A stretch of 64,000 nt of DNA from Brevundimonas guildfordensis (lineage in GTDB: Bacteria > Pseudomonadota > Alphaproteobacteria > Caulobacterales > Caulobacteraceae). The translations under genes and the position numbers were made by a program. Each line of letters opens with the position of its first letter. Position 1 is the first letter of the stretch. The stretch lies in assembly GCF_014836405.1 (NCBI RefSeq), contig NZ_JACSQU010000001.1, positions 1,178,001 through 1,242,000 on the forward strand. Reading direction: 5' to 3'. Of this stretch, positions 21,424 through 36,183 are shown in pieces. The notes under the pieces were generated by a model that did not search any database, was not told where the DNA came from, and saw nothing but the letters and a program-made list of their open reading frames with translations.

Positions 21424-21499
<76 letters not shown>

Positions 21500-21566
21500 T
21501 CGTCTCTCTAACCTCTTGAAATCGCTAAGAAGGCCCGCAGACATTGGCTTTGCGCGCCGCATGGGT

Positions 21567-21588
21567 TATCCAAAAGTTATCCAAATTT
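21567..21588 (+). repeat. Left arm-type repeat (22 bp)
   Basis: Contains two copies of TATCCAAA in tandem and is identical to 36074-36095 in the same orientation. It sits 57 bases inside the left core site and just before the integrase start. Position and tandem structure suggest integrase or excisionase arm-binding sites; it also overlaps where the integrase promoter should be, so integrase could regulate itself. Confidence 0.75.
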
Positions 21589-21598
21589 GGGGTAGTTG

Positions 21599-23431
21599 AT
21601 GGCGACCAAGAAGGGGCTTGTCCGCCCGCGCCGCAAGGTCGGGGACCAATGGGTTGAGTTGGACGGCCGTACCGCTAACGTCCGTATGGCGGTTCCTGGC
21701 GACGTGCGCGCCATCGTTGCCGCTCTGCCCTCCGATGATCCCCGCCGGGCTCTCTTTGTCCGGGCCGATGGGAAGCCAAAAGTCGAACTGGTTCGGACGA
21801 CGCGGCGACGCGACCAAGACGATGCAGAACGGGTCGGCGCGGCGATCAAGGCAGAATGGAAACGGGCTATCGCGGCGCTCCGCGCGACCGGCAACCCGCA
21901 GGACGTTGCGGCCGTCCTCGCCAGGATCGAGGACTGGCGCGAACGCGCCATCGCCCGCGCCCAAGGCTACGACGTGGACATCGCCATCTTGGACTTCACG
22001 GCGACCATGGAGCGGGCGGCAGACCGCCCTCCCCCGGCACCTGGGCTGGATCATGGCGGGCCGGAGTGGGCGCGATTGTATTTCACGGAACGGCCGCAGA
22101 CGTCGCGGGACGTTACACCACCGCCTGAGACGTTCCGGCGGGTCGAGCGCCTCCGGACTGCTGAGACCGGGGGCGAAGCGTGGCGGGACGTGCAGGGCTT
22201 TGAAGAAACGCTATCGCAGGTGGTCGGGGCCATAGACCACCGAGTCCGCGCCGCCGTGCGCCCGGCCTTCGCCAAAGCGTGGCGCGAGGTGCTGGAAGCC
22301 GAAGAGGTGGAGCGGCGCCTCGCGGCCCGCATCCTCGCGATCATGTCGGACCACGCGACCCCGGCACCGGTGGTTCCGCCCGCGCCAGGGGCCTATGAGG
22401 TGCGCCACGGCGACAGGACCGTGGGCGAATTGTTGGACGCCTACCTTGCGGCGGCGAAGGCCGCGCGGGGCGAGGCGGCGGTCAAGGAGTCCAAGGCGAT
22501 CTTTCGGGCCATCAAGGAGTTCCTGGGCGAGGAAACGCCGGTGCGCGCCGTCAAGCGCGACGACGCCCGGCGGGTGCGCGAAGCGCTCCAGCGGGTCCCG
22601 ACGAACGCAGTCAAACGGTTTGGGACGAACGTGACGTTGTCGGAAGCCATTGAGCGCGCAGACAAGGACGACCTTCCACGACTGACCCACAACAGCGTCA
22701 AAAACTACATGACCAACGCGGCCATGGTCTGGAATTGGGCTATCGACGAACGCGAGGGCTGGGCCGATCTCAACCCGTTCAAAGGACTCGCTGGGGAAGC
22801 GAAAGACAGCGTGAGGCGGCGCGGCTTCCGGGACGCCGAATTGGTCAAGCTGTTCGACCATCTATCTCAGTATAAGGCGCAAGGATTGGCCCGGTTTTGG
22901 GTCCCCGCCCTCGCCCTCAACGGCTGTCGCTTGTCGGAATTGTGCCAGCTTCGGACCACCGACGTTAAGATGCACGGCGATATTGTCTATCTGGACCTAA
23001 GCGAATTCGACGCCGATGGTCGGCGTGATCAAAGCAAGAGCCTCAAGACGCTCAACAGCGAGCGTTTCGTTCCTGTTCACCCGCTCTTGGTCGAGGCTGG
23101 CTTTAAGGATTTCGTCGCCAAGCGCAGGAACGATAAGTCGGAGCGCCTATTTCCTGAAATCGAACCTTACAAAGGGGACTGGTCGCACTACTTTTCGAAA
23201 TGGTTCGGCGAAATGTTGGATGACGTGGTCTCGGATGACCCGGCTATCGTCTTTCACTCGTTCCGCCATGGTCTTCGCCAGCGCGGCCGGACTGCTGGGC
23301 TGTCTCGGGAAATACTCGACGCAATCGGCGGCTGGGCGAAGCGTTCGACGGGCGAGAAATATGGCCTGGACGAAATCGTTGATCTTCACGCGCACAATGC
23401 GCGGATCAGCTTCGGCGCGCTTCACCTGTAG
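21599..23431 (+). CDS. int: Tyrosine recombinase (site-specific integrase)
   Basis: A 610-residue phage-type integrase that joins the element to the tRNA-Lys site. The C-terminal catalytic domain shows Arg444 in NGCRLSELCQL, His553 and Arg556 in HSFRHG, Trp579 in GGWAKRS and the nucleophile Tyr588 in EKYG. The SAM-like core-binding domain is around residues 285-390. The first 270 residues or so are an extra N-terminal region rich in charged residues, longer than in most integrases of about 400 residues. I start at the ATG at 21599, with GGGG upstream; a TTG directly before it is also possible. It sits directly beside attL, as usual for tRNA-targeting elements. Confidence 0.93.
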   Translation: MATKKGLVRPRRKVGDQWVELDGRTANVRMAVPGDVRAIVAALPSDDPRRALFVRADGKPKVELVRTTRRRDQDDAERVGAAIKAEWKRAIAALRATGNPQDVAAVLARIEDWRERAIARAQGYDVDIAILDFTATMERAADRPPPAPGLDHGGPEWARLYFTERPQTSRDVTPPPETFRRVERLRTAETGGEAWRDVQGFEETLSQVVGAIDHRVRAAVRPAFAKAWREVLEAEEVERRLAARILAIMSDHATPAPVVPPAPGAYEVRHGDRTVGELLDAYLAAAKAARGEAAVKESKAIFRAIKEFLGEETPVRAVKRDDARRVREALQRVPTNAVKRFGTNVTLSEAIERADKDDLPRLTHNSVKNYMTNAAMVWNWAIDEREGWADLNPFKGLAGEAKDSVRRRGFRDAELVKLFDHLSQYKAQGLARFWVPALALNGCRLSELCQLRTTDVKMHGDIVYLDLSEFDADGRRDQSKSLKTLNSERFVPVHPLLVEAGFKDFVAKRRNDKSERLFPEIEPYKGDWSHYFSKWFGEMLDDVVSDDPAIVFHSFRHGLRQRGRTAGLSREILDAIGGWAKRSTGEKYGLDEIVDLHAHNARISFGALHL

Positions 23432-23881
23432 CGGACTCCATCCCACTGTCGCGCTTACGACATTGTCTAAGTCAGTATTTAAACGAAACTGTCTTGGAGT
23501 CCAGATCGTCATCGGTCGGGAAGGCGGTCGCAGGCACTTCATTGATACGGAGTCCGCTACCTCAATTTCATCCGGAGTTCCTTGGCGCCGGGTCGGAATT
23601 TGGCAGGGACACCCCGCTTTGGGTCCCTCCGGTCGGATAAATTTTCGTCCCTGGCATGGGGGGGGGGCGCCGGTCAGAACAAGAGGGCGATCACCGCGCT
23701 GGGCATCCTGTTTTCGCTGCCGGCACCCTGGCAAAGAGAATGCCGACGTTCCGAAATGCAACTTGTGATGCTAGGAAGATTCCAAGCCTCTAAAGAGGCA
23801 TGCGACCAAATTTGACGCATGGGTCGAGATGATGTCGCGCGCTCTTGAGTGCGTGACTCCGATCCTGCGTGGGGGACGACT
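23432..23881. other. Non-coding stretch between integrase and mod
   Basis: A 450-base stretch without a convincing gene on either strand; the short open frames have no start signal or domain-like sequence. It holds a run of nine G at 23658-23666, a 38-base segment (23610-23647) that resembles one at 28942-28975 on the far side of the restriction-modification block, and presumably the mod promoter near its right end. Confidence 0.55.
23610..23647 (+). repeat. Left copy of an imperfect direct repeat flanking the R-M block
   Basis: Shares CACCC, GGGTCCC, CGGTCG, AAATTT and CG in the same order and orientation with 28942-28975, with small gaps. The two copies bracket mod, res, the Acb1-like gene and a small gene. 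This may mark the ends of a cargo insertion. The match is by eye and imperfect. Confidence 0.4.
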
Positions 23882-25861
23882 GTGTCAGTGAATGATTTTG
23901 ACAAACTTAGCCGAGAAGACCTCATCCGGCTTCTGACCGAGGAGCGCGAGAGCGACGAAAACGGCATCCGCCTTCGCTACCCCGGCCAAACTCCTCCCTG
24001 GCAGATCATCCGAAAAGTTCAGCCTCGGTCCCAGAAGATCGAGGATAAGCTTTCTGTAGGTTCGGTAGAAGATCAGGCCTGCAACCTTTTAGTGGAGGGC
24101 GAAAATCTTCAGGCGTTGGTCAGCCTGTATAAATATAGAGGCCAGGTTGATCTGGTCATCGCCGATCCGCCCTACAACACGGGCCAAGACTTCCGTTACA
24201 ATGATCGCTGGGATGAAGACCCCAACGATCCAGACCTCGGACGGCTTGTGCCAGCCGATGACGGTTCTCGCCACTCAAAGTGGCTTCGGTTTATGACGCC
24301 CCGTCTCTGGATGATGAAGGAGATGCTGAGACCGGGAGGGGTCATCGCCATATGCATCGACCACCGCGAAATGTTCCGGCTGGGGATGATGCTGGACGAG
24401 ATGTTCGGTGAAGCCAATCGCATTGGCATCATCAACTGGCAGAAGAGTTACGCCCCTCGGAATGATCACAAGCATCTGTCTACGGCAACTGAATACGTCC
24501 TGATCTACGCAAAGGACATTGATCGTTCGAAAACCGGTCTTCTCGCCAGGACTGAGGCGATGGATGCTCGCTACTTCTCGCGTGATGGCGATCCCGAGCC
24601 TTGGAAGCCGGGCGACCTAACTGCGCCCGGCGACAGCACCCATCCGGGTATGGTCTACGCGATCCAGTCTCCCTTCACCGGCCAACTTCACTACCCTTCA
24701 AAGGGCAGGCATTGGGGCTCTGAGAAGCGGCGGATGAAGAGCTGGCTGGAGCAATGGGGTTCCAGTTACGTCGAACGTGATCTCGGGGACGGTCACCCCA
24801 AGGCGTTGGTAATCAAGAGCGCACCGCTGCCCCACGAACGCGAATTCGCCGACGACAACCGTGTGCTGAAGAAGGCGCGCGAGACAGCCCGATCAGTCAT
24901 GGACCGGGGGAACTGGCCAGCCGCCCATTGGCGGGACGACGGCCTCGGCACGTTCGGGCTCAAAAAATATCTCAAGGAGGTCAAACAGGGCATCGTGCCG
25001 ACTACATACTGGTCCGATGACGACTATGATCAGCCGTTTGAGATGGGTGCTACATCTTGGCCCCACGCTGCATCCGGTCATAGCCAAGCTGGTGTAAACG
25101 AACTCTCGGCCATCGTCGGCAAAGGGCACGGCTTCGAAACCGTCAAACCGATGCGGTTGATCAAGAAGATCATCCAAATTTGGTGCCCGCCCAAAGGCAT
25201 TGTGCTCGACCCGTTCGCTGGATCGGGAACGACTGGTCACGCAGTCATGGAGTTGAACGACGAGGCGGGCACTGACCGAAGATTCGTTCTGATCGAACAG
25301 GGACGACCAGAAAAAGGCGATGCCTACGCCCGCAGCCTGACTCAGAAGCGGCTCCAACACGCTATCGAGGGTAAGCGCGTCGTTGACGGCAAGCTAGGCG
25401 TCGTGGCCAAGCCTCTCGCGAGTGGGTTCCGATTCCAGAAACTCATGGCAAAGGTGGATGCCAAAGCAGTCTTGGCCCTTGAGCGCGAAGAGATGATCGA
25501 TCTCCTCCTCACCAGTCATTGGGATCAGGCGGAGAGATCAGCTTCTCACCTTCATCGACTCCCTGCTGGAACGCATAATCATCTGTTCGCAAAGAACTCG
25601 CGCGGCGAAGGTTACTTCCTGGTGTGGAGCGGACCCGAGAATCCGTCTGTGCTGAACCGCGAAGCCTTCCGGTCTATCGTGAAGGAAGCCGAAGCCGAGC
25701 GCCTGTCTTCACCCTTCCACGTCTACGCGCGCATCTCTACTTACGGCGGCCCCAACGTTGAGTTCTATCAGATTCCAAATCGCATCCTGGAAAAGCTGGG
25801 GTTCAACGAAGCTTTGCATACCTACTCGGCCGGGGACGATAACTACGAGGCCCGAGCGTGA
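23882..25861 (+). CDS. Type III-like DNA methyltransferase (Mod)
   Basis: A 659-residue N6-adenine methyltransferase of the beta group, expected to recognise and methylate the target of the restriction system. The catalytic motif DPPYNTG is at residues 95-101 and comes before the AdoMet-binding motif FAGSGTTG at 445-452, the order that defines the beta group; the region between would hold target recognition. Start is the GTG at 23882, preceded by GGGGGA at a good distance; an upstream in-frame GTG at 23849 lacks such a site. It overlaps the helicase gene by GTGA. Its composition is less GC-rich than the chromosomal genes on either side, a sign of separate origin. Confidence 0.87.
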   Translation: MSVNDFDKLSREDLIRLLTEERESDENGIRLRYPGQTPPWQIIRKVQPRSQKIEDKLSVGSVEDQACNLLVEGENLQALVSLYKYRGQVDLVIADPPYNTGQDFRYNDRWDEDPNDPDLGRLVPADDGSRHSKWLRFMTPRLWMMKEMLRPGGVIAICIDHREMFRLGMMLDEMFGEANRIGIINWQKSYAPRNDHKHLSTATEYVLIYAKDIDRSKTGLLARTEAMDARYFSRDGDPEPWKPGDLTAPGDSTHPGMVYAIQSPFTGQLHYPSKGRHWGSEKRRMKSWLEQWGSSYVERDLGDGHPKALVIKSAPLPHEREFADDNRVLKKARETARSVMDRGNWPAAHWRDDGLGTFGLKKYLKEVKQGIVPTTYWSDDDYDQPFEMGATSWPHAASGHSQAGVNELSAIVGKGHGFETVKPMRLIKKIIQIWCPPKGIVLDPFAGSGTTGHAVMELNDEAGTDRRFVLIEQGRPEKGDAYARSLTQKRLQHAIEGKRVVDGKLGVVAKPLASGFRFQKLMAKVDAKAVLALEREEMIDLLLTSHWDQAERSASHLHRLPAGTHNHLFAKNSRGEGYFLVWSGPENPSVLNREAFRSIVKEAEAERLSSPFHVYARISTYGGPNVEFYQIPNRILEKLGFNEALHTYSAGDDNYEARA

Positions 25862-28215
25862 ATTTCGAACTCCTGCCGTTTCAGTCCAAGGCATCGAGCC
25901 AGATAGCGGCGAGGTATGTCCTACTGGCGAGTGATCGGCGTCGCCCGATGGAATACGCGGACTGGCCCACCCCATACTATCAGGCGCTCTCCGCGCTTAC
26001 CGGCGCCGGCAAGACTCCGATCCTCGCCGATGCGGTGGCTCAGATGCGCGCGCACATGTCGCTGGAGCCCGTCGTGCTATGGGTATCGAAAAGCCGAGCG
26101 GTCGTGGATCAAACTCTGGGCAACTTCCGGCCCGGTGGCAAATACGAAGGTCTTGTCGAAGGCTTTGTCGTCTCTCCCCTAGCCGAGGTGCCGAGAGATG
26201 CAATTGGCGACGCTTCCCAGGCTGTTCTCGCTCTCGCCACGGTCGGCAGTTTCAACCAGCAAGATCGCGCCGATGGCTCGCTAAAAGTCCACCAAGTGGC
26301 TCTAGACCATAGCGATGAGTCGCTCTGGGCGAACCTCACCCGGCGTGGTGCCGAGGACGGCCAAGCCCGCAGACCGCTTATCGTGGTCTATGACGAGGGC
26401 CAAAACCTTTCGGACCAGCAGACAGAAATCTTGCTGGAACTGGAGCCAGACGCGATCCTGGTAGCCTCGGCCACTATGCGAACGCCTGCGCGACTGGGGC
26501 AAGTTATCAGCCGTTTGACCCAGAGTGGATGGACGGCACAGCCACTTGAGGACGACGGGTTCTCCGATCCTCAACGGAGCTTGGTAACCGCAATCCGGAG
26601 CGTTGACGCAGTGGAAGCCGGGCTGGTGAAGCGGCAAATCATCCTTGGCGGTTACTCGACCGAAATGGAAACGGCCCTGTCGGACATGATGGCCGAGTTT
26701 CAGGTCGCTGACGAAAAGGCCAAGGTTCTGGAAGCCGGGTTTGCGCCTAAGGCGATCTACGTTTGCCGCACAAACATCACGCAGGACGACGGAACCGCCG
26801 ACGTCATTTCACGCCCGTTCGTTGAACGTAGGGCACCGCCCATTGTCATCTGGCGCTACCTGGTTGAAGTCGCAGGCATCGATCCGGCAGAGATCGCGGT
26901 CTACCTCGACCTTAAAGTTGATCGGAAGAACCATCCGCTGCCCCCAGATTTCAACCTTTTCTCTGGTGGGGAAGATGATTTCGCGGCATTCACCGCAGGC
27001 AACTTCAGGCACATCATTTTCAACCAGTCGCTCCAAGAAGGATGGGACGACCCCAGTTGTTGCTTTGCATATATCGACAAATCGATGGGTTCGGCGATCC
27101 AAGTCGAGCAGGTAATCGGTCGTGTGCTTAGGCAGCCGGGCGCTCGCCACTATCCCGACCCAGACCTGAACACGGCGAACTTTTTCCTCAGGGTCGATGA
27201 TCGCCAGGAGTTCGAAAAGACGCTCAGGGCAGTCCAGGTCAAAATCGCCGCTGAACTTCCGGAAGTGAAGCTGGAGGGTTTTGTGGACGGACGAGAGCGC
27301 GCAAGAGCGCGCCTCGATCCACGGCATCCGATGGACGTTCCAGAAATCCATATCGACGCAGATGAAGCGGTTGAACCGATGGCTGCTGTTGTCGCCACCC
27401 TGCCGGATTATGGCGGCGACAACGTGAACAGCCAGGGACCGGGTGAGCAGGTCAGGGCGGTTCAGGCAATTGGGGACGGATCGAGCGCCACGGTGACGGT
27501 GACTGCGCGCGAGCATTCAAACCGGGTGGTCGCACGCTGGCTGGTCCGGCGAACGATGCAGAGCCTTTATCCCGAAGCGGTCAAAACCATCGACTGGGCC
27601 GATCCCAGGTTCGAAGCACGAGTTGAGATCACCAGCCGCGCGGCGAGCCACCTCCGAAATGAGGCTGAACGGATGGTCGATGCTTACCTAACGAACGCAG
27701 ACTTGGCGTTTGAGGCCAGCAACCCCTATCGTGTCGGCAGTGTGTTGGCGAAGCCGGATCAACTTCGTCGGTTCAAGCACTCAGTGCATGAGGGATACAG
27801 CGATCTCAATGATCTGGAAGTCGAGATTGCAGAAACCATCGACGCGACAGGACTCAGGTGGGCTCGCAACCCTTCCAATGGCGGCTATTCAATTCCGTTG
27901 TTGGAGAAGGGGAGCGGCCGACGATTCTTCCCAGATTTCCTCGTGTGGAAGGATGACCTGATCTACGCGGTCGATCCGAAAGGAAGCCATCTGATCGTCG
28001 ATGACGCCGGGAAAAAGCTTCTGGCGATCCGAGATGAACGTCGGACGAAGCGGGTTATTGTTCGCCTTATTACCGAGGGGCGCTGGAGCCATGAGCCGAT
28101 CAAAAAGCTGAGCGGTTCAGGTTACTCCCTCTGGAAAATCACCAACGCAGGCCAAGTGCGCGCCTCTCACAGCACTTCGGTCGCTGACGTAGTGAAGCGG
28201 GCGCTCGACCTATAG
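25858..28215 (+). CDS. Type III-like restriction subunit (Res), helicase-nuclease
   Basis: A 785-residue superfamily 2 ATPase with a terminal nuclease-like domain. Walker A is TGAGKT with Lys52, the DEAD-box-type motif II is DEGQ at 179-182, and motif VI is QVIGRVLRQ at 418-426. Near the C-terminus PDFLVW (Asp693) and VDPKG (Asp706, Lys708) form a PD-(D/E)xK pattern. Together with Mod this fits a type III restriction enzyme that translocates or slides along DNA and cuts, although it is shorter than the roughly 900-1000 residues of classical Res. It starts with GTG inside the mod stop, so synthesis is coupled. The low GC content matches mod. Confidence 0.83.
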   Translation: MNFELLPFQSKASSQIAARYVLLASDRRRPMEYADWPTPYYQALSALTGAGKTPILADAVAQMRAHMSLEPVVLWVSKSRAVVDQTLGNFRPGGKYEGLVEGFVVSPLAEVPRDAIGDASQAVLALATVGSFNQQDRADGSLKVHQVALDHSDESLWANLTRRGAEDGQARRPLIVVYDEGQNLSDQQTEILLELEPDAILVASATMRTPARLGQVISRLTQSGWTAQPLEDDGFSDPQRSLVTAIRSVDAVEAGLVKRQIILGGYSTEMETALSDMMAEFQVADEKAKVLEAGFAPKAIYVCRTNITQDDGTADVISRPFVERRAPPIVIWRYLVEVAGIDPAEIAVYLDLKVDRKNHPLPPDFNLFSGGEDDFAAFTAGNFRHIIFNQSLQEGWDDPSCCFAYIDKSMGSAIQVEQVIGRVLRQPGARHYPDPDLNTANFFLRVDDRQEFEKTLRAVQVKIAAELPEVKLEGFVDGRERARARLDPRHPMDVPEIHIDADEAVEPMAAVVATLPDYGGDNVNSQGPGEQVRAVQAIGDGSSATVTVTAREHSNRVVARWLVRRTMQSLYPEAVKTIDWADPRFEARVEITSRAASHLRNEAERMVDAYLTNADLAFEASNPYRVGSVLAKPDQLRRFKHSVHEGYSDLNDLEVEIAETIDATGLRWARNPSNGGYSIPLLEKGSGRRFFPDFLVWKDDLIYAVDPKGSHLIVDDAGKKLLAIRDERRTKRVIVRLITEGRWSHEPIKKLSGSGYSLWKITNAGQVRASHSTSVADVVKRALDL

Positions 28216-28614
28216 ACTAAAGCCGTGATCGACCAGTTCCGGCCCCAGGTCGAGCGCCCCGCCATAGGGGCGGACGGCAGCCAGGTCGCGCCCGTCGTCA
28301 GCAGTAAAAGACACGTGCGGCAGATACCGGCGAAATCTCCAATGCGCGCCCGCCGCGAATAGGAGACGGTGGCGCCGCGCCAGGGCGAGCGACACCACCG
28401 CCAGAACTATCAAGCCGCCCATACGGGTCACCGCGCGGGCTGTAGACGGCGGGAGTGTGAGCCCGGCCGGATCGAGGCTGACGCCCTCAGGGAGTCCACC
28501 GGCGACGGTGACGTGCCATGCGGAGGGGCGCAAATCGATGAAGCCTTCGCCGCGCGCCCAGGCGGCGACGTCGGCCGAATTCAGCAGCGGCCGCATGACC
28601 GGCCCGCCGATCAC
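28210..28614 (-). CDS. Stand-alone 2H phosphoesterase, Acb1-like (candidate anti-CBASS)
   Basis: A 134-residue protein with the paired His-x-Thr/Ser motifs of the 2H phosphoesterase fold: HVT at 34-36 and HVS at 100-102. The N-terminal pattern (LLNSADVAAWARGEGF before the first motif), the RRH segment before GAHW, and the ending PYGGALDLGPELVDHGF resemble the Acb1-like domain that phages carry alone or at the end of portal-type proteins. T4 Acb1 degrades the cyclic nucleotides that trigger CBASS defence. The start is the GTG at 28614, which overlaps the stop of the small gene upstream as GTGA. It ends six bases inside the 3' end of res on the other strand. Fold assignment is moderately firm; the anti-defence role is inference from recalled family patterns. 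Confidence 0.6.
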   Translation of the reverse strand: MIGGPVMRPLLNSADVAAWARGEGFIDLRPSAWHVTVAGGLPEGVSLDPAGLTLPPSTARAVTRMGGLIVLAVVSLALARRHRLLFAAGAHWRFRRYLPHVSFTADDGRDLAAVRPYGGALDLGPELVDHGFSL

Positions 28615-28781
28615 TGGAGCGGGATTAGGAAAACCCGGTCATAGCCGTGGCGGCCGTCAACCGTGGGGAAGGCGGCAAAATCCTCCCCCGCGTTCTCGAT
28701 CAGGTCGCGCGCTAATTCGGTGAAGCGGTCAGCTTGGCCGTCGCGGGCTGTCAGCAGCAAACCGTCATCGGTCGCCACCAT
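28611..28781 (-). CDS. Small unknown protein upstream of the Acb1-like gene
   Basis: A 56-residue open frame beginning MVATDDGLLLTARDG and ending GYDRVFLIPLQ. The frame is open a little upstream of the ATG without another standard start. Its stop overlaps the GTG of the Acb1-like gene by four bases, which is the main reason to call it a gene. No Shine-Dalgarno site is obvious and I recognise no domain. It may be the remnant of a longer phage gene whose 5' part was lost. Confidence 0.5.
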   Translation of the reverse strand: MVATDDGLLLTARDGQADRFTELARDLIENAGEDFAAFPTVDGRHGYDRVFLIPLQ

Positions 28782-28941
28782 TTCATAGCTGGGATCGTGG
28801 CACCTTAGACAATCTAGCAGCCTTCCAATGCGCCGATATTACGTCGGTCGCCCAAGCCTCGCAACGTCGCCGGGTGTCGCGGGTGGAAAGCGAAATTAAG
28901 TCCGGGAACGGCTGGCGCCCTTAAGGTAAGCGGAAGCCTAC

Positions 28942-28975
28942 CACCCGTCACGGGTCCCCGGCGGTCGAAATTTCG
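28942..28975 (+). repeat. Right copy of the imperfect direct repeat flanking the R-M block
   Basis: Counterpart of 23610-23647, lying 26 bases downstream of the 3' end of the serine recombinase gene. It is followed by a G/C-rich segment containing GGGGTGTCCC, the reverse complement of GGGACACCCC found at the left copy, so the resemblance extends beyond the aligned part. Confidence 0.4.
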
Positions 28976-29001
28976 GCCGGGGTGTCCCTCCCAGGCGGGG
29001 G

Positions 29002-29664
29002 TTATCGCGCGATCATGCCAGACACGACGTTGGGGCTGTAGGGGCGGCCTCCCTTGCCCACGAACCCCAAGGCGGCGAGTTCGGCGGCGATCTGGCGAAG
29101 GGACCGGACCCTGCCGGTTTTGGGGTTCCGCCGGGCGAGGCGCCGTGCCTCTCGCGCAAGGCCGGGCTGAGTCTCGACGTGGGCCTTGCGCCCCTCGCAT
29201 CTGCCTGTCAGGGCGCGCTTTCGGTCGCGCGCGGCGCGTAGCCGCTGAACAGTCTTAGCCTTGTCATAGCCCGCCACCGCGCCCGCGATTTGCCTCATGA
29301 GCAGGCGTTCAGGACTAGAGTCATCGGACAGGTCGAGCCCAGCGGCCGTGACCACGCGGACGTCCAGGGCGGCTAGCTGGCGAAGGCCAAGTTCTTGCGC
29401 GAGTAGGTCGCGGGCGAAGCGGTCGGCGTTCTCGATTAAGATCGCCGACACGCCCGCCTCGACCGCACGGTCAAGTAGGGCGGCAAAGCCCGGCCGCGAT
29501 TCCACTGGATCAGCGCCGGACACGGCTGCATCCCAGAAGCAGGAATCGAGTTCATATCCGGCGGCGATGGCAAACGCCTCTACCGCGCGGGCCTGGCGAT
29601 GAACCGAGTCGCCGTCCGTGTTCGTGGCAGACGACGTTCTGAAATAGGCGATGGCGCGGGTCAT
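29002..29664 (-). CDS. Serine recombinase (resolvase/invertase family)
   Basis: A 220-residue small serine recombinase. The N-terminal catalytic domain shows AYFRTSS, with Arg9 and the likely nucleophile Ser11, then SRPGFAALLDRA and ENADRFARDLLAQELGL with the conserved Arg residues. The C-terminal part (SLRQIAAELAALGF, then PYSPNVVSGMI) looks like a resolvase helix-turn-helix. GGGAGAG lies just before the ATG. It could resolve multimers of the element or move the neighbouring cargo; a tyrosine integrase in the same element already accounts for integration. Confidence 0.87.
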   Translation of the reverse strand: MTRAIAYFRTSSATNTDGDSVHRQARAVEAFAIAAGYELDSCFWDAAVSGADPVESRPGFAALLDRAVEAGVSAILIENADRFARDLLAQELGLRQLAALDVRVVTAAGLDLSDDSSPERLLMRQIAGAVAGYDKAKTVQRLRAARDRKRALTGRCEGRKAHVETQPGLAREARRLARRNPKTGRVRSLRQIAAELAALGFVGKGGRPYSPNVVSGMIAR

Positions 29665-29829
29665 TTGTCTCTCCCTTTCACCCTATTCTGTAGGCCGGAC
29701 GCCCTTACGGAGTCTCGGATAAAGAGGGTTAATCTGTCCTGAATTCTTGAGAATTCCGAACAGCAAACCAACTACTAAGCCGTAACTCTTCGCCCTTAGG
29801 TTCCCTTCGCACAACCAAGCGAGGCAAGC

Positions 29830-30102
29830 ATGACCGACGACACGCAAGACCGCATCGAAGAGGAACGGGTAGCGGAGGACGAAGTGTTTGAGGCGCTTTG
29901 TGTCATCTGGACGCCCAGGCCCGAACGCGGCACGGTCGTCGATGCACATAAGCACCAGTTGCGGCTAGACGCGCTCGAAGCGATGGCGGGCAAGCGATGG
30001 TTTGCGCGGGGCGATCAAGAGGGCGAATTCAAGTTGACTTCGGCCGGACTGAGCGAATTGGGCAGACGCAACATGGGGCGAAAGCCGATCACGCGCCGTT
30101 AA
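29830..30102 (+). CDS. Unknown small protein
   Basis: A 90-residue acidic-then-basic protein. GAGG lies six bases before the ATG, which supports translation. The second half (EAMAGKRWFARGDQEGEFKLTSAGLSELGRRNMG) resembles a winged-helix tail in outline, but I cannot name a family. It is one of few rightward genes in this half of the element and is divergent from the serine recombinase gene. Confidence 0.55.
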   Translation: MTDDTQDRIEEERVAEDEVFEALCVIWTPRPERGTVVDAHKHQLRLDALEAMAGKRWFARGDQEGEFKLTSAGLSELGRRNMGRKPITRR

Positions 30103-30165
30103 AACCGCCGCCCGACAAGTCCGGCTGTCGAAACGGGCGGGCGTCAAGCTGACGTTGACAGCCTG

Positions 30166-30486
30166 TCAGAACGCGCCCGTGAACACATGCCAATCTTGAT
30201 CGATGGCTGTCCAATTTCCTGCGTGGGGCTTGTCGTCGGCGAAGGCGCCAAAGCCCAGGACGATTCCCAGGTTCGATACGACCGAGTTCAATTTTCCCCG
30301 TTCATACCCCATGCCGTCTTTCCCGTGGTGGTCGTCGAGCAGTTCTTGCAAACGGTCGCCGTAGGCCGTGGCGGCCGCAAAAAGTGAAGCGCGCTCGACC
30401 ACTGACAGATCGGTCCGGCGAGCCTCGGCTATCACGTGGTCCAAGGCTGCAAAGTTGTAGGCGTTCGTCGTCACGGTGACCCCCAT
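30166..30486 (-). CDS. Unknown small protein
   Basis: A 106-residue mostly helical protein with LVEEASLF-like regions (VIAEARRTDLSVVERASLFAA) and an aromatic C-terminus (NWTAIDQDWHVFTGAF). No family is recognised. It is leftward, like the replication block to its right. A longer leftward frame starting at 30586 in another phase overlaps its start; only its first 35 residues or so look protein-like, so I do not call it. Confidence 0.55.
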   Translation of the reverse strand: MGVTVTTNAYNFAALDHVIAEARRTDLSVVERASLFAAATAYGDRLQELLDDHHGKDGMGYERGKLNSVVSNLGIVLGFGAFADDKPHAGNWTAIDQDWHVFTGAF

Positions 30487-30627
30487 GGTTTGAAAGCGAG
30501 CCTACCTGTCGCCCGAGCACATCGGCAAGTTGTCGTTGGAATTCGTGATCCAGCAGCACGACGTTCAACGCTCGCGTCGTGACCATCGCGCGTCAAAGTG
30601 GCGATGAGCGCCGGGAATCGGGGCGAG

Positions 30628-30741
30628 AACGAGTGACAAAAAACGACCAAACGTCCCGTATCTCTTTCACGGAAACGGATTCTGTCTCCCTGGAAAGATG
30701 CAGGGGGGGGGTATGGGTTTGGTCGTTTTTTGTCCCTCGTT
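30628..30741. repeat. Long inverted repeat, two 25-bp arms, one mismatch
   Basis: The arms are 30628-30652 and 30717-30741. The inner 18 bases are perfectly complementary (GACAAAAAACGACCAAAC against GTTTGGTCGTTTTTTGTC). The 64-base spacer contains a run of nine G at 30703-30711. It lies immediately downstream of the leftward replication block, 11 bases from the stop of the winged-helix-like gene. It may be a terminator, a recombinase or replication-protein binding site, or part of an origin; sequence alone does not decide. Confidence 0.8.
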
Positions 30742-30751
30742 TTGGAGGGGT

Positions 30752-31603
30752 TCAGGGGGTTCGACCTCGGGACAGCGCCACGGCATCGCCGCTAACTGCC
30801 TGGGCGAACGCGCGCCAACAGGCCGCTGACAAGGCGTCACCCGCCCAGGGCGTCCCCAGGCGGCGCCCTTCCTCCAGTTCCGCCCAGGTGAGCGCGAGGG
30901 CGTCGGCTTCACAGATGCGCGCCAGCCGTGCGCGCCACCACTCACTCAGGCGCATCCCCTTGGCGGTGGTTAGCACCAGGGCGTCGGACCTCGCGAGGTC
31001 CGCAGCCAAGAGCGCGCCCACGTCGCCCTCCATCAGCTTCTCAATGTCCAGGCCCGCAGCAGCGCGCGCCCGCCTGACCCCAGCGGCGATGCGCGCCCGC
31101 ATGGCGTTGTCGGTGCCCAGGTCATAGGTGCCGTGTTCCAGCCTGACCGCCATGGCGATACGCCAGCCCGGCAGAACAGCATCACGCCACGTCAGGTCCG
31201 GAGCCAGCCACCATCCGCATCCGATCGGCAAGTATCGACCGCGCCGCAAAGCCCTCGCCAAGGCCTTTCGATCAGCTTCACCGTTCAGACCCAAGGCGTC
31301 CCTCAGTTCATGAACAGACGCCATTCCGGCGTTGTCGTTCATGAACAGCGCGACGCCTTCAGCCATGCCGCATCCACGTCCGAGCCGCCCCGCCTCCTCC
31401 AGTCCGCACCCCGCGACGAAAACACCTCGGTCGGCGGACGCCAGCACACCAGAAGACCGCAGCGTCTTCAACGCCCGCCCCAGGCGTGGCGAGTCCTCGC
31501 CAAGCCGCGCGGCGATGTCGCGGCGCCGGAAGCCGTGGGGGTCGTCGTTCAGCAACCCTCGCGCCTTTTCGACCACCGCGATCTTGAACGCGCAGGGGCT
31601 CAT
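30752..31603 (-). CDS. Unknown protein with winged-helix-like N-terminus, replication block
   Basis: A 283-residue protein; the ATG overlaps the stop of the SF3 ATPase gene as ATGA, so the two are coupled. Residues about 20-65 (RRRDIAARLGEDSPRLGRALKTLRSSGVL) look like a winged helix, and a second such segment appears near 95-120 (SVHELRDALGLN). The middle has a Trp-rich stretch (GCGWWLAPDLTWRDAVLPGW), and the C-terminal half is helical. Position after a replication ATPase suggests an accessory replication or regulatory role, which is inference. I recognise no named family. Confidence 0.65.
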   Translation of the reverse strand: MSPCAFKIAVVEKARGLLNDDPHGFRRRDIAARLGEDSPRLGRALKTLRSSGVLASADRGVFVAGCGLEEAGRLGRGCGMAEGVALFMNDNAGMASVHELRDALGLNGEADRKALARALRRGRYLPIGCGWWLAPDLTWRDAVLPGWRIAMAVRLEHGTYDLGTDNAMRARIAAGVRRARAAAGLDIEKLMEGDVGALLAADLARSDALVLTTAKGMRLSEWWRARLARICEADALALTWAELEEGRRLGTPWAGDALSAACWRAFAQAVSGDAVALSRGRTP

Positions 31604-34221
31604 CCATCCCCCCGCTTGGGCGGCGCGATCAAAAGCCAACCGTCACCGGCGCGAACGGCCATGCGCGGGGACTCCTGAACGGTGAAGGTGCGCCCCTCCA
31701 GCCGATCCAGCAGGCGGCCGAACGCGCGCCGTTGATCGCCCTCGCGCCACCCCTTCAACGCCCCCAACTCCAGCAGCTTGACGTGATCGAACAGCGCGCT
31801 CTCCGTTACGGGCACATTCGGCCACTTCGCCGCCCAGGCGGAAACCACTTCCACCACTTCAGCGGCGTCACGGCTGACCTTCGCGTCGCGCGGATTTGCC
31901 AGGAATCCGGACACGCCAGCAGCCTTCAGAACACCGCCCACGGCGCGCGACCAGCCTTCAAACGAGGGAAGGAAATCATTGCTCAGCGGCCGCTCTTGCA
32001 CGACCCAAAAGCGAATGAGCGTCAGCAAGGCCGCGATCAGTTCGCCGCGATTGCTCAGAACCCAATCTTTGAAGGTGATTTCCCGCCCATCGGCATCTTG
32101 CCGCTTGCGAAACACTCGATCCTTAGGGTTCTCCGTCAGGGTGTTGAGGTTGATGCGCGCGACCCGCCGGATCAGGTCTTCATGCAGGAAGACGTTGTTG
32201 CCCGTATAGACCCACATGAGGGTGTTAGGGGCCTCAATCGTCTTGTTCTGACCCAGCGCCCGCCCGCCAATCTTGCCCGCCGTTAGGGCCATGATGAGCG
32301 CCGGAGAGGTAAGTTCTTCAGCGTTGTCCAAAAGGAAGTGCGAGTCCCCGGCGCGCACCTTGGTCACGACGATCTTCCCCAACTCTTCCTCGGTGGTGTA
32401 GGCGGTCGGCGTGGCCTCTTCGCCATCCAGCAGCAACGCGGAAAGCTTTGCCAGTTCGGTGCCGCCCGTGCCCGGCTTCGGCTTGTCGATTCCGAACATC
32501 GGCACAAGGCCGCTGAACAGGTCGCGCATGTAAGGCGTCAACAGCATCGCTAGCGCATTGGCGCGGGACGCCCCACCGTCCGGCCGCCCGTCCGAATTGG
32601 TCTTATCGTAGAAGGGGAAATCCACCAGCAAGTCGCCGGTCAGCCGCCCAAGCGCGGCGCCCACGTCTTCTCGGGTCGGATTGTCGGGGATGGGCGGAAC
32701 CTCCAGGCCGCCCAGGTCCACGAATACGTCGCCGTGCCAGCCGTCGCGGTCCAAAAGAGAGCCGTCCGCCGCCATCGTGGGCGCGCGCCGGACCTCCGGT
32801 GTCTTAGGAAGGTCGCCCCCCTCCAGGCCATGGAACACCAAATCGCACAGATGACGGTCGGGGGCCTGACGCGGCCCCCGCGCGCCGGTGTCGTTGACGC
32901 GGGCGAACGAACACCGCTTCGCCAGCGCCGACTTGAATTCGGGCGCGGACAGGGGGACGAACTCAGCCCGGCCAGTCTCGTGCTCCAGATGCATCAACTC
33001 GCCCTGGTGAAGCGTATAGGTGGGATCAGACTTGTTCGCAGTCCTCGTCACCGCCAGCAGAAACGTCCGCGCCTCGACCTGATCGGGGCCGTCGCCCTGA
33101 TAGATCAGGACGGCGTGTCCGTCATCGCCCATGACCGCTCCGGACGTCACCGGCTCCGGCAGCATGATATGCGCCGCGATCTCGCCCTTGAGCGTGGAAA
33201 TCTTGATCTTCGTGCGATCCTTGAGGGCGGACAGCGCCACTTCCTGATCCCCCACAGGCAGCAGGGCGATCCGCTTCACCACGACGCCGCGCCCCTTGGA
33301 GTCCGCCTTATCCAGCGCGTCGATTTGGGCAATCACTTCGGTCAGGTCGGGCGGCGTCGCCGCAACCGGCGGGGGCTCCGCAACCCCCAGGTCATGCCAG
33401 TCCACGGGCGAGCCGTCCAACTCCATGACCACCGGCTCCGCGCCGGGGCGGCGGCCGGGCATGGCGACCATGGCGGCGGGGTCGCGCGCCGCCTTAGTCA
33501 GGGCGATGCGGCCGCTGACGCTGTATTCCACCATCGTCAGCACCTCGCCCCACAGCTTCCAGCCCGCCGCCTGGGTGGACGCGGCGTCGATAGGCTTGAA
33601 GGCTGGGCCCAAGGGCACCGCGACCAGGTACGACGGGAGTGGACCGTGGTGGATAACCACCGCCGCACCGTCCGCCGTCTGGACGTTCTCAGCGGCGATC
33701 TCCACCGACTCGGAGACGTCGAACCAGCCGCGCACTTCGCCCAGGTAATAGGCGAGGCTGGCCTTGTTGATCTCGGCGCCGCCGTGCTGGGCGCGGCCAT
33801 GCCGCACCAACCACTTCACCACGGCATCGCGGTTCAACGTCGTTTCCGTGCGGCCATTCGCCCAGGTCGAAACGATAGCGCCGGACCAGCCCCGCTCATC
33901 CAGGCGGTCGCAAACGTCGTGCAGACCGACGCCCTCGACCTCGATCAGAGCGACATTGATTTCGCTTACGGCGCTCTTGCGCGGTTCCCCGCCTACCAGT
34001 CCCGCCGTCACCACCGCCCCGCCGGGCGGCGTCATGGATTCCGTCATGGCGGCGCTCGCCAGGAAGGCGATGAAGCCCGGCCAGTTGGACGCTTGCGCGG
34101 TCCAGCGCGCGGCCTTTGCGGTCGGGTCACTGGACGTATGGAAGTTGATTTGAACGTCGTCGCTATTGAGCGTGCGCGATTCCTTGCTCCCCGCCGCCGG
34201 GGTGCTACAATTCTTAGGCAT
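31600..34221 (-). CDS. SF3-type replication ATPase/primase-like protein with altered Walker A
   Basis: An 873-residue protein. The C-terminal half has an SF3 (D5/P4 alpha-like) helicase layout: a P-loop position PGTGGTEL at 583-590, an acidic motif in FLLDNAEEL, LTAGKIGGRALG, the sensor TGNN at 673-676, and DLIRRVARINLN with a likely arginine finger. The P-loop Lys is replaced by Gly. The N-terminal half would be where a primase domain sits, but I see no clear primase triad. Start at 34221 has AAGGA seven bases before it; an upstream in-frame GTG at 34251 lacks this. It is the largest gene of the element and probably drives its replication. Confidence 0.72.
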   Translation of the reverse strand: MPKNCSTPAAGSKESRTLNSDDVQINFHTSSDPTAKAARWTAQASNWPGFIAFLASAAMTESMTPPGGAVVTAGLVGGEPRKSAVSEINVALIEVEGVGLHDVCDRLDERGWSGAIVSTWANGRTETTLNRDAVVKWLVRHGRAQHGGAEINKASLAYYLGEVRGWFDVSESVEIAAENVQTADGAAVVIHHGPLPSYLVAVPLGPAFKPIDAASTQAAGWKLWGEVLTMVEYSVSGRIALTKAARDPAAMVAMPGRRPGAEPVVMELDGSPVDWHDLGVAEPPPVAATPPDLTEVIAQIDALDKADSKGRGVVVKRIALLPVGDQEVALSALKDRTKIKISTLKGEIAAHIMLPEPVTSGAVMGDDGHAVLIYQGDGPDQVEARTFLLAVTRTANKSDPTYTLHQGELMHLEHETGRAEFVPLSAPEFKSALAKRCSFARVNDTGARGPRQAPDRHLCDLVFHGLEGGDLPKTPEVRRAPTMAADGSLLDRDGWHGDVFVDLGGLEVPPIPDNPTREDVGAALGRLTGDLLVDFPFYDKTNSDGRPDGGASRANALAMLLTPYMRDLFSGLVPMFGIDKPKPGTGGTELAKLSALLLDGEEATPTAYTTEEELGKIVVTKVRAGDSHFLLDNAEELTSPALIMALTAGKIGGRALGQNKTIEAPNTLMWVYTGNNVFLHEDLIRRVARINLNTLTENPKDRVFRKRQDADGREITFKDWVLSNRGELIAALLTLIRFWVVQERPLSNDFLPSFEGWSRAVGGVLKAAGVSGFLANPRDAKVSRDAAEVVEVVSAWAAKWPNVPVTESALFDHVKLLELGALKGWREGDQRRAFGRLLDRLEGRTFTVQESPRMAVRAGDGWLLIAPPKRGDG

Positions 34222-34537
34222 TGGAAGTCCTTGGCCCGTCGCCGTTCTCACCGGTGGCGGGTCTCTTGTTTAGTTGCAACGGATTGAACGCGCGGGACCG
34301 ACACGCGCGGGCTGGATCGCTAAGACTAGGGCTAAGACTAACGCGCGCCTCGCCGCCGATGATGGCGGCGCGGATCAGGCGCGACTTAACTAGTTTGGGG
34401 CGCTCTGCATCAAAGGGCGGGGCCTAGGGCGAGCGAGGACACCCACCTTTTCTCACGCGTTGAGGCGGCGGGGAAGAATTTTCGACGCGCCGCCGCCAAG
34501 ATTCCCCTGGGGATTGATCTCGGCAGCCGCCCCCGCG
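34222..34537. other. Non-coding region upstream of the SF3 ATPase, origin-like repeats
   Basis: No gene is seen. There are two tandem copies of GCTAAGACTA (34319-34328 and 34331-34340), a hairpin CGCCGCC-GATGAT-GGCGGCG at 34351-34370, and a second stem GGCGGCG/CGCCGCC at 34464-34470 and 34491-34497. Tandem repeats and hairpins beside a replication ATPase are what an origin would look like, but this is inference; they could equally form leader or terminator structures between 34538 and the ATPase gene. Confidence 0.45.
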
Positions 34538-34723
34538 TCAGGGTGCGATCTGGGACGGGTCGGCGGGTTCGCCGTCAAATTCCGGCGTCAGGAGCGTCGG
34601 CGGCGCCCGGTGCGGCACCGGAACCGTAAACGGCCGGGGCGCCGGGATGGTCAAGCCGGCGCCAGGAAAGCGACGGCTCGGGAACCGGCGGACCGGCGCG
34701 GGGCGGACGAGGCGCTCGCACAT
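34538..34723 (-). CDS. Small proline-rich unknown protein
   Basis: A 61-residue frame starting at an ATG directly after the stop of the next gene upstream (TAGATG), which favours translational coupling. It is rich in Pro and Arg (VRRFPSRRFPGAGLTIP, VPVPHRAPPTLLTPEF) and has no recognisable domain. High GC content makes chance open frames common here, so this call rests mainly on the junction. Confidence 0.42.
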   Translation of the reverse strand: MCERLVRPAPVRRFPSRRFPGAGLTIPAPRPFTVPVPHRAPPTLLTPEFDGEPADPSQIAP

Positions 34724-35215
34724 CTAGGCCGCCTCCTCCAGGGCGGCGTCGCCGTCCAGCGACACCACCGCCGCCGCGATCATCTGCGAAAGCGCGGTGG
34801 TCAGTGCCTCACCGGCGTCACTGGCGCCCAGCAGGATCGTGACCGGCCGCGAAGCCACCGCCGTCGGAGGATTCAATCGCAAGGTCTTCAGGCCGCGCGC
34901 GGGCCAGCCCAGGCCAATCGTGATCGGCGCCAAACAGCCCTGCCGCGCCACCACCAGGGCGGACGGACGCAGCGTATCCAAGTCGGCGTCGTCGTCGGCC
35001 GGATAGTCCAGCCAAACATCAACGGCGCGCCCATTCATCCGGAGCGCATCGACAAAATGACGTTCGATCAACAGGCGAAGGCGGCCCTCAAAGGAGCGCG
35101 GAGCCGGGGCGTTCTGAGAGCCCTGCAAACCGCCGTAGCCGTAGCTGAAGCGGTGGTGCAAGCTGACTACCGCATCCTCAAGATAGGCCGCCAGCTTCTC
35201 GACTTCGGCGCTCAC
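34724..35215 (-). CDS. Unknown protein of the element's early operon
   Basis: A 163-residue protein starting at a GTG that overlaps the AlpA-like gene stop as GTGA. It contains RLRLLIERHFVDALRMNG and WLDYPADDDADLDTLRPSALVVARQG, and ends in a helical acidic tail. It may be an annotated-as-hypothetical phage protein; I cannot name it. Coupled translation with the regulators on either side makes it a real gene with good probability. Confidence 0.6.
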   Translation of the reverse strand: MSAEVEKLAAYLEDAVVSLHHRFSYGYGGLQGSQNAPAPRSFEGRLRLLIERHFVDALRMNGRAVDVWLDYPADDDADLDTLRPSALVVARQGCLAPITIGLGWPARGLKTLRLNPPTAVASRPVTILLGASDAGEALTTALSQMIAAAVVSLDGDAALEEAA

Positions 35216-35445
35216 GACATGGACTCCGACACCGCCTGCCTAGCCGCCTCGCGCCGCGCCTCTTCCCAGCGCTGGCCGATCCAAAAATCCACGGCGTCGC
35301 GGGACCACCGAAGGCTACGGAACCCCAGCCTCAGAATCGGCTTGGGCGAGCCCTCCAGGCGGCTAAAGGCCGCCGGGGTGAGTCCAAGCGGACGGAGGCG
35401 AGCCGCCAGTTCGCGGCTACTCAGCAGGGAGATGGGCTCGCTCAC
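35212..35445 (-). CDS. AlpA-like DNA-binding protein (possible excisionase)
   Basis: A 77-residue protein with a GTG start overlapping the upstream stop as GTGA. The pattern LLSSRELAARL...LTPAAFSRLEGSP...LRLGFRSLRWSRDAVDFWI follows the AlpA/MerR-type small winged-helix proteins, with the wing residues RLGxRSxRW and the closing VxxWI. In P4-like elements such proteins activate integrase or act as excisionases. The helix-turn-helix is a little unusual in the recognition helix, so the role is inferred from pattern and position. Confidence 0.62.
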   Translation of the reverse strand: MSEPISLLSSRELAARLRPLGLTPAAFSRLEGSPKPILRLGFRSLRWSRDAVDFWIGQRWEEARREAARQAVSESMS

Positions 35446-35834
35446 TTCGCACCCCCCTTCCGAAATTGGCTAACCCAGGCACCGGTCACCCCTTGGGCGT
35501 TGGCGGCCTCCAGGCGGGCGCCGGGGTTCATGGCCTTCAGCTTGGCCCGCGACGCGGCGGCGGCTTCAGCCTGGGCGGGGGCTCCCGCCGTGTTGAACAG
35601 GTGGGGAGCCTGGACCCGCAAGGCGTCCAGTAGGGTGTTAAGGTCGGACCCCGAAGCCCAGCGAAGCGCGCCAATATTGGCGCCGCTTTCGATGATCTCC
35701 GGTGCATCGTCGGCATCGGCGATGATCCGACGCGTGATGTCGCCGACTTGACTGTCGGACGCAGCCGGACAGGCGCGGGCCACGGCCGCGCCCACGGCTG
35801 CGCGCAGCACGGCGGCCTGGGTGGTGATGGTCAT
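35442..35834 (-). CDS. Unknown first protein of the leftward operon
   Basis: A 130-residue Ala-rich, helical protein (RAAVGAAVARACPAASDSQVGDI; AEAAAASRAKLKAMNPGARLEAA). I choose the ATG at 35834; an in-frame TTG at 35852 is an alternative. The ending VTGAWVSQFRKGG resembles part of a helix-turn-helix, with no firm family. It is the first gene after the leftward promoter at 35973-36001 and couples to the AlpA-like gene by GTGA. Confidence 0.58.
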   Translation of the reverse strand: MTITTQAAVLRAAVGAAVARACPAASDSQVGDITRRIIADADDAPEIIESGANIGALRWASGSDLNTLLDALRVQAPHLFNTAGAPAQAEAAAASRAKLKAMNPGARLEAANAQGVTGAWVSQFRKGGAK

Positions 35835-35972
35835 TGTAATGAGTGGACTCAAGGGCGTCGCCGCCCCTGGGGCGAAACCTAGATGATTGTTAACCGGGGG
35901 CGAAGGCTCGAAGAATCGAGGGGGCGCCGCCGCCCCCGGCCGTGTCGGTGAGGCCCCCTCATCGACTTTCGA

Positions 35973-36001
35973 ACCCTACCCGATATTAACCATTTTGTCA
36001 A
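35973..36001 (-). promoter_or_regulatory. Sigma-70-type promoter of the leftward operon
   Basis: Read on the minus strand: TTGACA at 36001-35996, a 17-base spacer, and TAGGGT at 35978-35973. The -35 box is a perfect consensus and the spacing ideal. It would start a transcript about 130 bases before the ATG at 35834 and serve the four small genes and possibly the SF3 ATPase. Confidence 0.75.
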
Positions 36002-36073
36002 GGATTTTGGCTTTTTCCCTCTTGACGATTCTGCGTTATTGTGAACATGGACGAATTTGGGAAGGCAGAACCA

Positions 36074-36095
36074 TATCCAAAAGTTATCCAAATTT
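36074..36095 (+). repeat. Right arm-type repeat (22 bp)
   Basis: Identical to 21567-21588 in the same orientation. It lies 61 bases inside the right core site, nearly the same distance as on the left (57 bases). Confidence 0.75.
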
Positions 36096-36156
36096 TGGCG
36101 GCGAAATTCAGCGTAACTTATTGAATTTTCAATACTTACTCTGCTCGCAGTTCATC

Positions 36157-36183
36157 CCTGTGATCACCCACCATCGTCTCTCT
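36157..36183 (+). repeat. attR core (27-bp direct repeat)
   Basis: Identical to 21483-21509. Only the 3' portion of the tRNA sequence is present, so no second tRNA gene is formed. Beyond it the sequence returns to chromosomal genes. Confidence 0.93.

Follow-up and report, generated by a model that had tools for sequence, protein, structure and literature searches.

We describe a 14.7-kb element in a tRNA-Lys gene of Brevundimonas guildfordensis (Caulobacteraceae), lying within a 64,000-nucleotide stretch of contig NZ_JACSQU010000001.1 that we call the window; coordinates are those of the window unless another locus is named. Judged by its sequence, this is a site-specific integrative element, real and well bounded. 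We read it further, with a probability of about 0.6, as a non-autonomous element of a hitch-hiker or satellite-like kind. This reading draws on the ends of the element, on a sister element in a second genome of the genus (G142, locus L099), on the kinship of its replicase with proteins of jumbo phages, and on the results of a search of its open reading frames (ORFs) for transfer genes.

Ends of the element and uninterrupted sites in relatives

An earlier note on this DNA, made from the letters alone, had given the element exact ends, and these hold. The two cores are identical over 27 bp and comprise the final 17 nt of the tRNA-Lys and 10 nt beyond it, and the two arm-type repeats are identical over 22 bp and lie inside the cores at distances of 57 bases (left) and 61 bases (right), in the same orientation, as direct repeats.

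21424-21499, plus strand: tRNA-Lys(CTT), the integration target (ARAGORN, Rfam); its 3' 17 nt are in the core
21483-21509, plus strand: attL core CCTGTGATCACCCACCATCGTCTCTCT, 27 bp, exact repeat
36157-36183, plus strand: attR core CCTGTGATCACCCACCATCGTCTCTCT, 27 bp, identical to attL
21567-21588, plus strand: left arm-type repeat TATCCAAAAGTTATCCAAATTT, 22 bp; sister copy at L099 9227-9248, different at 2 of 22 bases
36074-36095, plus strand: right arm-type repeat TATCCAAAAGTTATCCAAATTT, 22 bp; sister copy at L099 19552-19573, exact (0 of 22)

Chance would be expected to produce about 4e-8 exact 27-mer pairs per 16 kb, and about 3e-5 in the case of the 22-mer arm pairs. Each arm repeat contains TATCCAAA twice, and the distance from core to core is 14,674 bp.

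The joined flanks were searched against 121 genomes of the genus, the own genome included. At least eight (G108, G050, G058, G007, G109, G126, G044 and G114) matched continuously over the full length, with 85-90% identity, and so have an uninterrupted site. The stretch read around each of the eight holds a single core with 0-2 mismatches (exact in G058), and in these stretches no match to an element protein was found near the site; the remaining 112 relatives gave no full-length match among the matches listed, which were mostly partial or elsewhere. Since the repeats are exact and relatives have uninterrupted sites with a single core, we conclude that a 14.7-kb element was inserted here and that the uninserted site exists. 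The earlier note had proposed such a comparison, holding that empty-site relatives without a single matching site would speak against its reading; what they show is one matching core.

A sister element shares the integrase and the right-end block

The same tRNA-Lys gene in G142 holds a sister element, whose integrase is 89% identical and which has the right-end block in common. A 22-bp core is common to its two ends, at a core-to-core distance of 10.5 kb. In a DNA alignment the two elements match over the tRNA, the integrase gene and slightly beyond it (84%) and over the right end (34532-36178, 67%); shorter matches cover the first part of the replicase gene (34132-34310, 73%) and a 57-bp patch around a palindrome (29739-29795). 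The rest of the two elements gave no convincing DNA match. In the sister, DRT2 (PADLOC 9e-119) and PDC-S21 (4e-116) replace the type III restriction-modification genes and the Acb1-like gene of the window, the resolvase is a different one, and the replicase is of VapE type (PF05272, 4e-70), with a primase-like part that is distantly related to that of the window (29% over 87 residues).

21596-23431, plus strand: tyrosine integrase, 611 aa from TTG (ATG at 21599); PF00589 1.9e-7, PHROG integrase 1.5e-29
34538-34723, minus strand: 61-aa ORF; 63% over 54 aa in the sister
34724-35215, minus strand: o163, conserved right-end gene; 50-53% in the sister
35212-35445, minus strand: 77-aa small DNA-binding-like protein (HTH77, for helix-turn-helix; 'AlpA-like'); 77% in the sister
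35442-35852, minus strand: o136, conserved right-end gene with an HTH-like C-terminus by eye; 53% in the sister

The PF00589 match, together with 4-nt overlaps at two joints of the right-end block (35442-35445 and 35212-35215), bears out the integrase and the small coupled genes that had been predicted. Residues R444, K483, H553, R556, W579 and Y588 are invariant in three integrases (numbering of the three-integrase alignment), and we take these to be the catalytic residues of the enzyme. Phage relatives of the integrase were confined to six records at 22-32% identity. The prediction of an AlpA-like regulator stands in part: HTH77 has weak PHROG matches (0.006-0.024) to DNA-binding and excisionase families, and neither it nor its sister copy matched any Pfam family, AlpA included, at a limit of E 10, in searches whose filters drop most weak matches.

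The replicase groups with proteins of jumbo phages

31600-34251, minus strand: replicase, 883 aa, with a degenerate archaeo-eukaryotic primase (AEP)-like region and a superfamily 3 (SF3)/D5-type helicase with a lysine-less P-loop
30752-31639, minus strand: o295, overlapping the replicase end; weak AbiEi_4 match (0.21)

The replicase has no Pfam match and no sequence match in the PDB, and matches phrog_10537 at 2e-121. An AlphaFold model built from 31 sequences (30 of the 54 relatives found were taken in and 24 left out by choice) has a mean pLDDT of 79.5. Its nearest structures, tied at Z about 12 and all within residues 376-807, are PriRep1, the SaPI5 enzyme, the poxvirus D5/E5 proteins and NrS-1; the PriRep1 and SaPI5 matches (Z 12.0-12.5) align 311-329 residues with an rmsd of 4.6-5.7 and 8-12% identity. 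On this model the protein is surely of the AAA+ kind, and the SF3/D5 primase-helicases are its best class by a narrow margin. The 'SF3 replication ATPase' of the earlier note is thus upheld as to the nearest fold and left less firm as to family, given the lack of a Pfam match and the narrow margin over other AAA+ proteins. Walker B and TGNN are present in the sequence and the Walker A lysine is absent; PriRep1 and the SaPI5 enzyme share the helicase fold, by the same narrow margin, whereas the window P-loop has no lysine in the usual place.

The best phage matches of the replicase (the best 11 of 61) are Caulobacter and Brevundimonas jumbo phages, at 29-32% identity over 78-88%. In a tree, the window protein pairs with that of a Phenylobacterium contig, L026 (96/92), and the two join four Caulobacter jumbo-phage rows (Dolichocephalovirinae) and the 5.4-kb contig L030 (100/100). 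The four phage rows are IMG/VR copies of known phages and form two near-identical pairs; the Brevundimonas phage rows were left out, the branches are long (1.12 for the window), the root is the midpoint, each row was trimmed to its C-terminal part, and 13 island rows without the anchor motif were cut by length. Among the 31 alignment rows, G or A takes the place of the Walker A lysine in seven, which are precisely the members of this clade, and all seven have K at position 590. The remaining 24 show the usual lysine at 597, with A or S at 590, so that the alternative lysine of the clade stands seven residues upstream of the usual one. As the seven rows form one clade, the change in the P-loop is a single evolutionary event. 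L026 and the four full-length phage rows shown retain motifs taken to be those of an AEP primase, which the window copy has lost. We infer that the replicase is a helicase whose P-loop lysine has been relocated and which would depend on outside priming.

Among the Dolichocephalovirinae, CcrColossus gp183 and Domovoi 03820 match 82-83% of the window replicase at 30-32% identity and carry the same P-loop signature. They differ from it in having about 330 further residues, with the AEP motifs kept, and in their setting, beside a tyrosine recombinase/integrase gene in a phage of 280-353 kb. As a relative of that recombinase the element integrase was rejected, there being no significant BLASTP match.

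The lost primase motifs and the absent P-loop lysine could also be signs of decay, in an island that was formerly mobile and is now immobilised and kept for its restriction system. The group is also small, o163 having been found in 2 of 398 Caulobacterales genomes (own included, sampled evenly from a larger group). We consider this unlikely: the att cores are identical over 27 bp and the arms over 22 bp, the main frames are open, the expected active-site residues of the integrase are present, the same site is empty in at least eight relatives, and the P-loop change is common to the jumbo phages, where it is likewise paired with another lysine.

A modular relative in Phenylobacterium, and other occupants of tRNA genes

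A scan of contigs from 84,980 species with two strict peptide patterns gave one Phenylobacterium locus, a lower bound: L026, which carries the replicase (36%, best segment), o295 (30%) and the resolvase (54%) in the same order. Its o295 homologue matches AbiEi_4 at 0.0003, below the cut-off. The L026 island lies between sfsA-like and methionine-aminopeptidase-like genes (names by eye), and a 182-bp stretch of the sfsA-like gene recurs at 79% on its far side. A large serine recombinase (PF07508) stands at its end, and its other genes include those for DUF4145, AbiU2 and T5orf172 proteins. Since integrase, replicase and cargo differ among the window, G142 and Phenylobacterium elements, we regard them as separate exchangeable modules; from their gene contents, all three appear to be modular, defence-carrying integrative elements.

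Of 398 Caulobacterales genomes sampled evenly, the own one counted, 30 have the integrase (E no higher than 1e-20) and 16 match the replicase profile, mostly distantly. The tRNA-Lys(CTT) gene is a common hotspot with other occupants in G152 and G031. The G152 occupant (L156-L157) has ends 24.9 kb apart, an integrase at 46-48%, serine-recombinase-like ORFs, a type III Mod-like gene (7e-20) and a weak Res match (0.009). The one in G031 was rejected as a relative; it has an integrase-like ORF by eye and no match to an element protein. Two further genomes, G393 and G402, were rejected as carriers of whole-element relatives, their loci being prophage-like with a distant replicase and a terminase-like ORF by eye, as were eleven islands (L105-L115) with a distant replicase that falls in a separate far clade. 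Four of these eleven have a tRNA-Thr gene in the stretch read. L108 (G146), L109 (G129) and L112 (G158) are same-genus islands near tRNA-Thr(CGT) with a distantly related replicase, and L108 also has a type III Mod homologue.

Defence and putative anti-defence cargo

23849-25861, plus strand: type III Mod, 670 aa; PF01555 8.4e-36, PADLOC MTase_III 4e-71; DPPY and FxGxG motifs
25858-28215, plus strand: type III Res, 785 aa; PADLOC REase_III 1.7e-8; PF04851 0.0015, below the cut-off
28210-28614, minus strand: Acb1-family 2H phosphoesterase-like protein, 134 aa; PF23474 3.4e-9, 37 bits against a cut-off of 27
28611-28781, minus strand: 56-aa ORF upstream of and overlapping the Acb1-like gene; an ORF only, which may not be a gene

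The restriction system seen in the earlier note is confirmed by the PADLOC matches and the motifs, and its genes have what is expected of a type III restriction-modification system with Mod and Res in one operon: the two overlap by 4 nt and both subunits appear complete by motifs, which in Res are a Walker A, a DE box and a PD-(D/E)xK-like C-terminus. The cargo has a GC content of 57-60%, against 62-69% across the rest of the element, as expected of cargo that has been swapped in.

The Acb1-like protein, too, is as predicted. Its PF23474 match is above the cut-off, and it has both HxT/S motifs (H34-V-T36 and H100-V-S102), as has the solved Acb1 (7t26), which a three-sequence profile matches at 1e-11. 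The same profile matches the Pam3 portal C-terminus at 3e-35, a stronger match that is due in part to two of the three profile rows being portal-linked domains. The closest phage relatives of the window gene differ from 7t26 in being portal-type or portal-adjacent: one is the C-terminus of a DUF1073 protein beside the terminase in Pseudomonas phage psageB2 (L168 1121-2923), and another is a gene directly after the portal in a Synechococcus phage (L169 1593-2144). The Acb1-like gene may therefore derive from a phage head cluster, and some 'Acb1' annotations may be portal-linked domains. A single-sequence AlphaFold model was uninformative (mean pLDDT 40). An anti-defence role for this gene is plausible.

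Resolvase, repeats and smaller reading frames

29002-29664, minus strand: small serine recombinase (resolvase type), 220 aa; PF00239 1.1e-22, 54% to L026
29741-29756, no strand: palindrome GAATTCTTGAGAATTC, in the 57-bp stretch common to the sister; candidate operator or res site
29830-30102, plus strand: 90-aa ORF, which may not be a gene
30166-30486, minus strand: 106-aa ORF
30628-30741, no strand: long inverted repeat with 25-nt arms and a 64-nt gap, directly downstream of o295; hairpin z -6.1

The palindrome of the sister, GAAATCCTGAGATTTC (L099 13691-13706), has arms that differ from those of the window with the symmetry kept. The palindrome pattern occurs once in the window genome and once in G142, and was not found in G152 or G476; its sole match in the viral contigs, L187, is a contig without an element gene and was taken as chance. 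The long inverted repeat is a candidate terminator or single-strand origin. An inverted 12-nt pair lies behind o295 in L026 and an inverted repeat behind the sister's replicase, both of them different from the window hairpin.

No transfer genes recognised among the element's reading frames

Fourteen ORFs of the element were compared with Pfam and ten of them with PHROGs, and no capsid, portal, tail, terminase, relaxase or mating match was found. The claim that capsid, tail and mating genes are lacking is sustained, the capsid or relaxase homologues that would have counted against it having failed to appear. NCBIfam gave no match above the cut-off for any of ten proteins, and the replicase alone gave none in viral contigs. 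Open-access literature searches on Brevundimonas phage satellites and on Caulobacter jumbo-phage satellites found no such element.

An integrated plasmid-like element might be mobilised in trans by conjugation, as an integrative and mobilisable element (IME) without a relaxase of its own, rather than packaged by a phage. The replicase and resolvase form a plasmid-like pair, the element is small, and relatives of the helicase half are found on 19 plasmid records, none of them covering 80% of the protein. We think this rather unlikely, given the lack of a relaxase or mating gene in the ORFs searched, the lack of any DNA common to plasmids except the tRNA region, and closest replicases that are in phages.

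Two loci of the own genome carry terminase-like genes. At G000:C3 (L177-L178) a terminase match is followed by portal- and protease-like ORFs, an arrangement that is gene transfer agent-like by eye. At G000:C2 (L179 8733-12213) a further small island pairs a terminase-like ORF (phrog_2, 5.8e-10) with an ORF that by eye resembles a tyrosine integrase; the 20 kb read shows no other obvious head gene.

The first of these loci would suit an island that is moved passively, by generalised transduction or a gene transfer agent and with no dedicated helper, as would the use of the tRNA-Lys hotspot by other elements in G152 and G031. This is very improbable in our view. Gene transfer agents generally take up just a few kb, too little to hold 14.7 kb, and the replicase, its partner and the resolvase would be unnecessary.

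Comparison with known islands

P4-like satellites are described (PMC8628076) as carrying integrase, alpA, alpha, ash/epsilon, delta, sid and psu. Membership of this group was rejected, as of these only the integrase was found, with no match to psu, sid, delta or ash in the Pfam (14 ORFs) and PHROG (10 ORFs) comparisons; its replicase is of a class related to alpha, yet it gives no direct match to alpha. Membership of the phage-inducible chromosomal islands (PICIs) was rejected as well, there being no match to AlpA (PF05930/PF12728) or to terS in the same comparisons. The layout of P4-like or PICI satellites, which the earlier note had seen here, is therefore not borne out. Nor were the marks of capsid-forming PICIs or prophages found, the Acb1-like protein matching only a portal-fused domain, or those of integrative and conjugative elements and IMEs, the 14 ORFs giving no relaxase or type IV secretion match.

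Two other kinds of island come closer. The phage-inducible chromosomal minimalist islands (PICMIs) of Vibrionaceae are modelled (PMC10803314) by an AlpA Pfam match, a DUF3987/DUF5906 primase and insertion at fis. The element has none of the three, its replicase being without a Pfam match and its insertion at tRNA-Lys; it resembles them in being small, with an integrase, a small regulator and a primase-helicase, and in having no capsid remodelling genes. The Pseudomonas islands I23, I44 and I55 carry defences and sit at tmRNA, and I55, the closest demonstrated precedent that we found, is a satellite reported to be moved by jumbo phage JPTI55 (PMC12595487). As presented there, they share with our element a tyrosine integrase at one end, a small regulator near the other, an RNA-gene target, no transfer genes, varying defence cargo beside the integrase and a common block at the far end. 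They alone have the tmRNA target, YqaJ and inovirus Gp2-like genes and sizes of about 23-55 kb in that account, whereas the window and sister elements have tRNA-Lys, no YqaJ or Gp2-like Pfam matches, sizes of 14.7 and 10.5 kb, and in the window a D5-type replicase akin to those of jumbo phages. The I55 hallmarks given in the same paper, intY at tmRNA and alpA or a 23-bp 3' end, are not those of our element, which has tRNA-Lys and a different core. In its way of working, its nearest analogues would be the hitch-hiker islands of the I55 and PICMI kinds.

A proposed cycle and its weak points

In the cycle that we propose for a hitch-hiking element, a cue, probably phage infection, would lead the right-end operon o136-HTH77-o163 to switch the element on, and the HTH protein may serve as an excisionase alongside the integrase. 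The SF3/D5-type replicase, together with o295, would unwind the excised circle, and the resolvase would keep it monomeric. Priming would have to come from the host or a helper, since the primase motifs are lost in the window replicase. Element DNA would then leave the cell inside helper-phage particles. Through its defence genes the element would repay the host for carriage and strike competing phages; in a recipient with CBASS-like immunity (cyclic-oligonucleotide-based anti-phage signalling), cyclic nucleotide alarm signals would be broken down by the Acb1-like protein.

The kinship of the replicase makes the Dolichocephalovirinae the first helper candidates. They are reported as episomal pseudolysogens in soil bacteria (PMC12195562), and an island would have long contact with a phage of that habit. 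A fuller version, which we regard as doubtful, is that of a Caulobacteraceae satellite group living off Dolichocephalovirinae, in which a primase-helicase with the relocated lysine was exchanged, the island primase was lost, priming is left to the helper, and the defences act against competitors.

Several results weigh against a hitch-hiking, helper-dependent element. The lead of the primase-helicases in the structural comparison is narrow, FtsH, Clp and MCM reaching Z 10.6-11.3 over fewer residues, and a Foldseek search with the model gave E-values down to 6e-10 with low TM-scores; the lysine-less P-loop could also mean that ATPase activity has been lost. The sister is without the jumbo-phage-like replicase, which is thus not core to the tRNA-Lys family, and the HTH gene is not AlpA by Pfam. 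No helper-hijack or packaging gene was found in the Pfam and PHROG searches. No phage DNA shared with the element was found beyond the tRNA, a 26-bp match at E 1 being at chance level; nothing in the phage collection matches o163 or o295, and patterns of the integrase, o163 and o295 have none in viral contigs. By eye, none of three terminase-like matches in the host genome lies in a complete prophage (the terminase family used also matches in 11 of 14 control genomes). The host genome gave no match to SMODS, the one CBASS nucleotidyltransferase family searched for; the target of the Acb1-like protein, if it acts as Acb1 does, would be in other hosts or in another signalling system; a SMODS gene is present in G142. 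Finally, all steps after integration are ones that we infer.

A class of defence-carrying, helper-dependent-looking islands was already known; what is new is the sister with swapped cargo, the Phenylobacterium relative with another integrase and the link of the replicase to jumbo phages. The movement of defence-carrying tRNA islands without transfer genes is mostly unexplained, and the three related elements compared here vary in integrase, replicase and cargo independently of one another. A replicative helicase that lacks a P-loop lysine in one place and has one in another also offers a clean biochemical test case. Among the sequences examined, the replicase clade otherwise consists of jumbo phages of such hosts and one contig, which gives a named helper candidate, and the question of how these islands move could be put to the test with existing Caulobacter and Brevundimonas jumbo phages.

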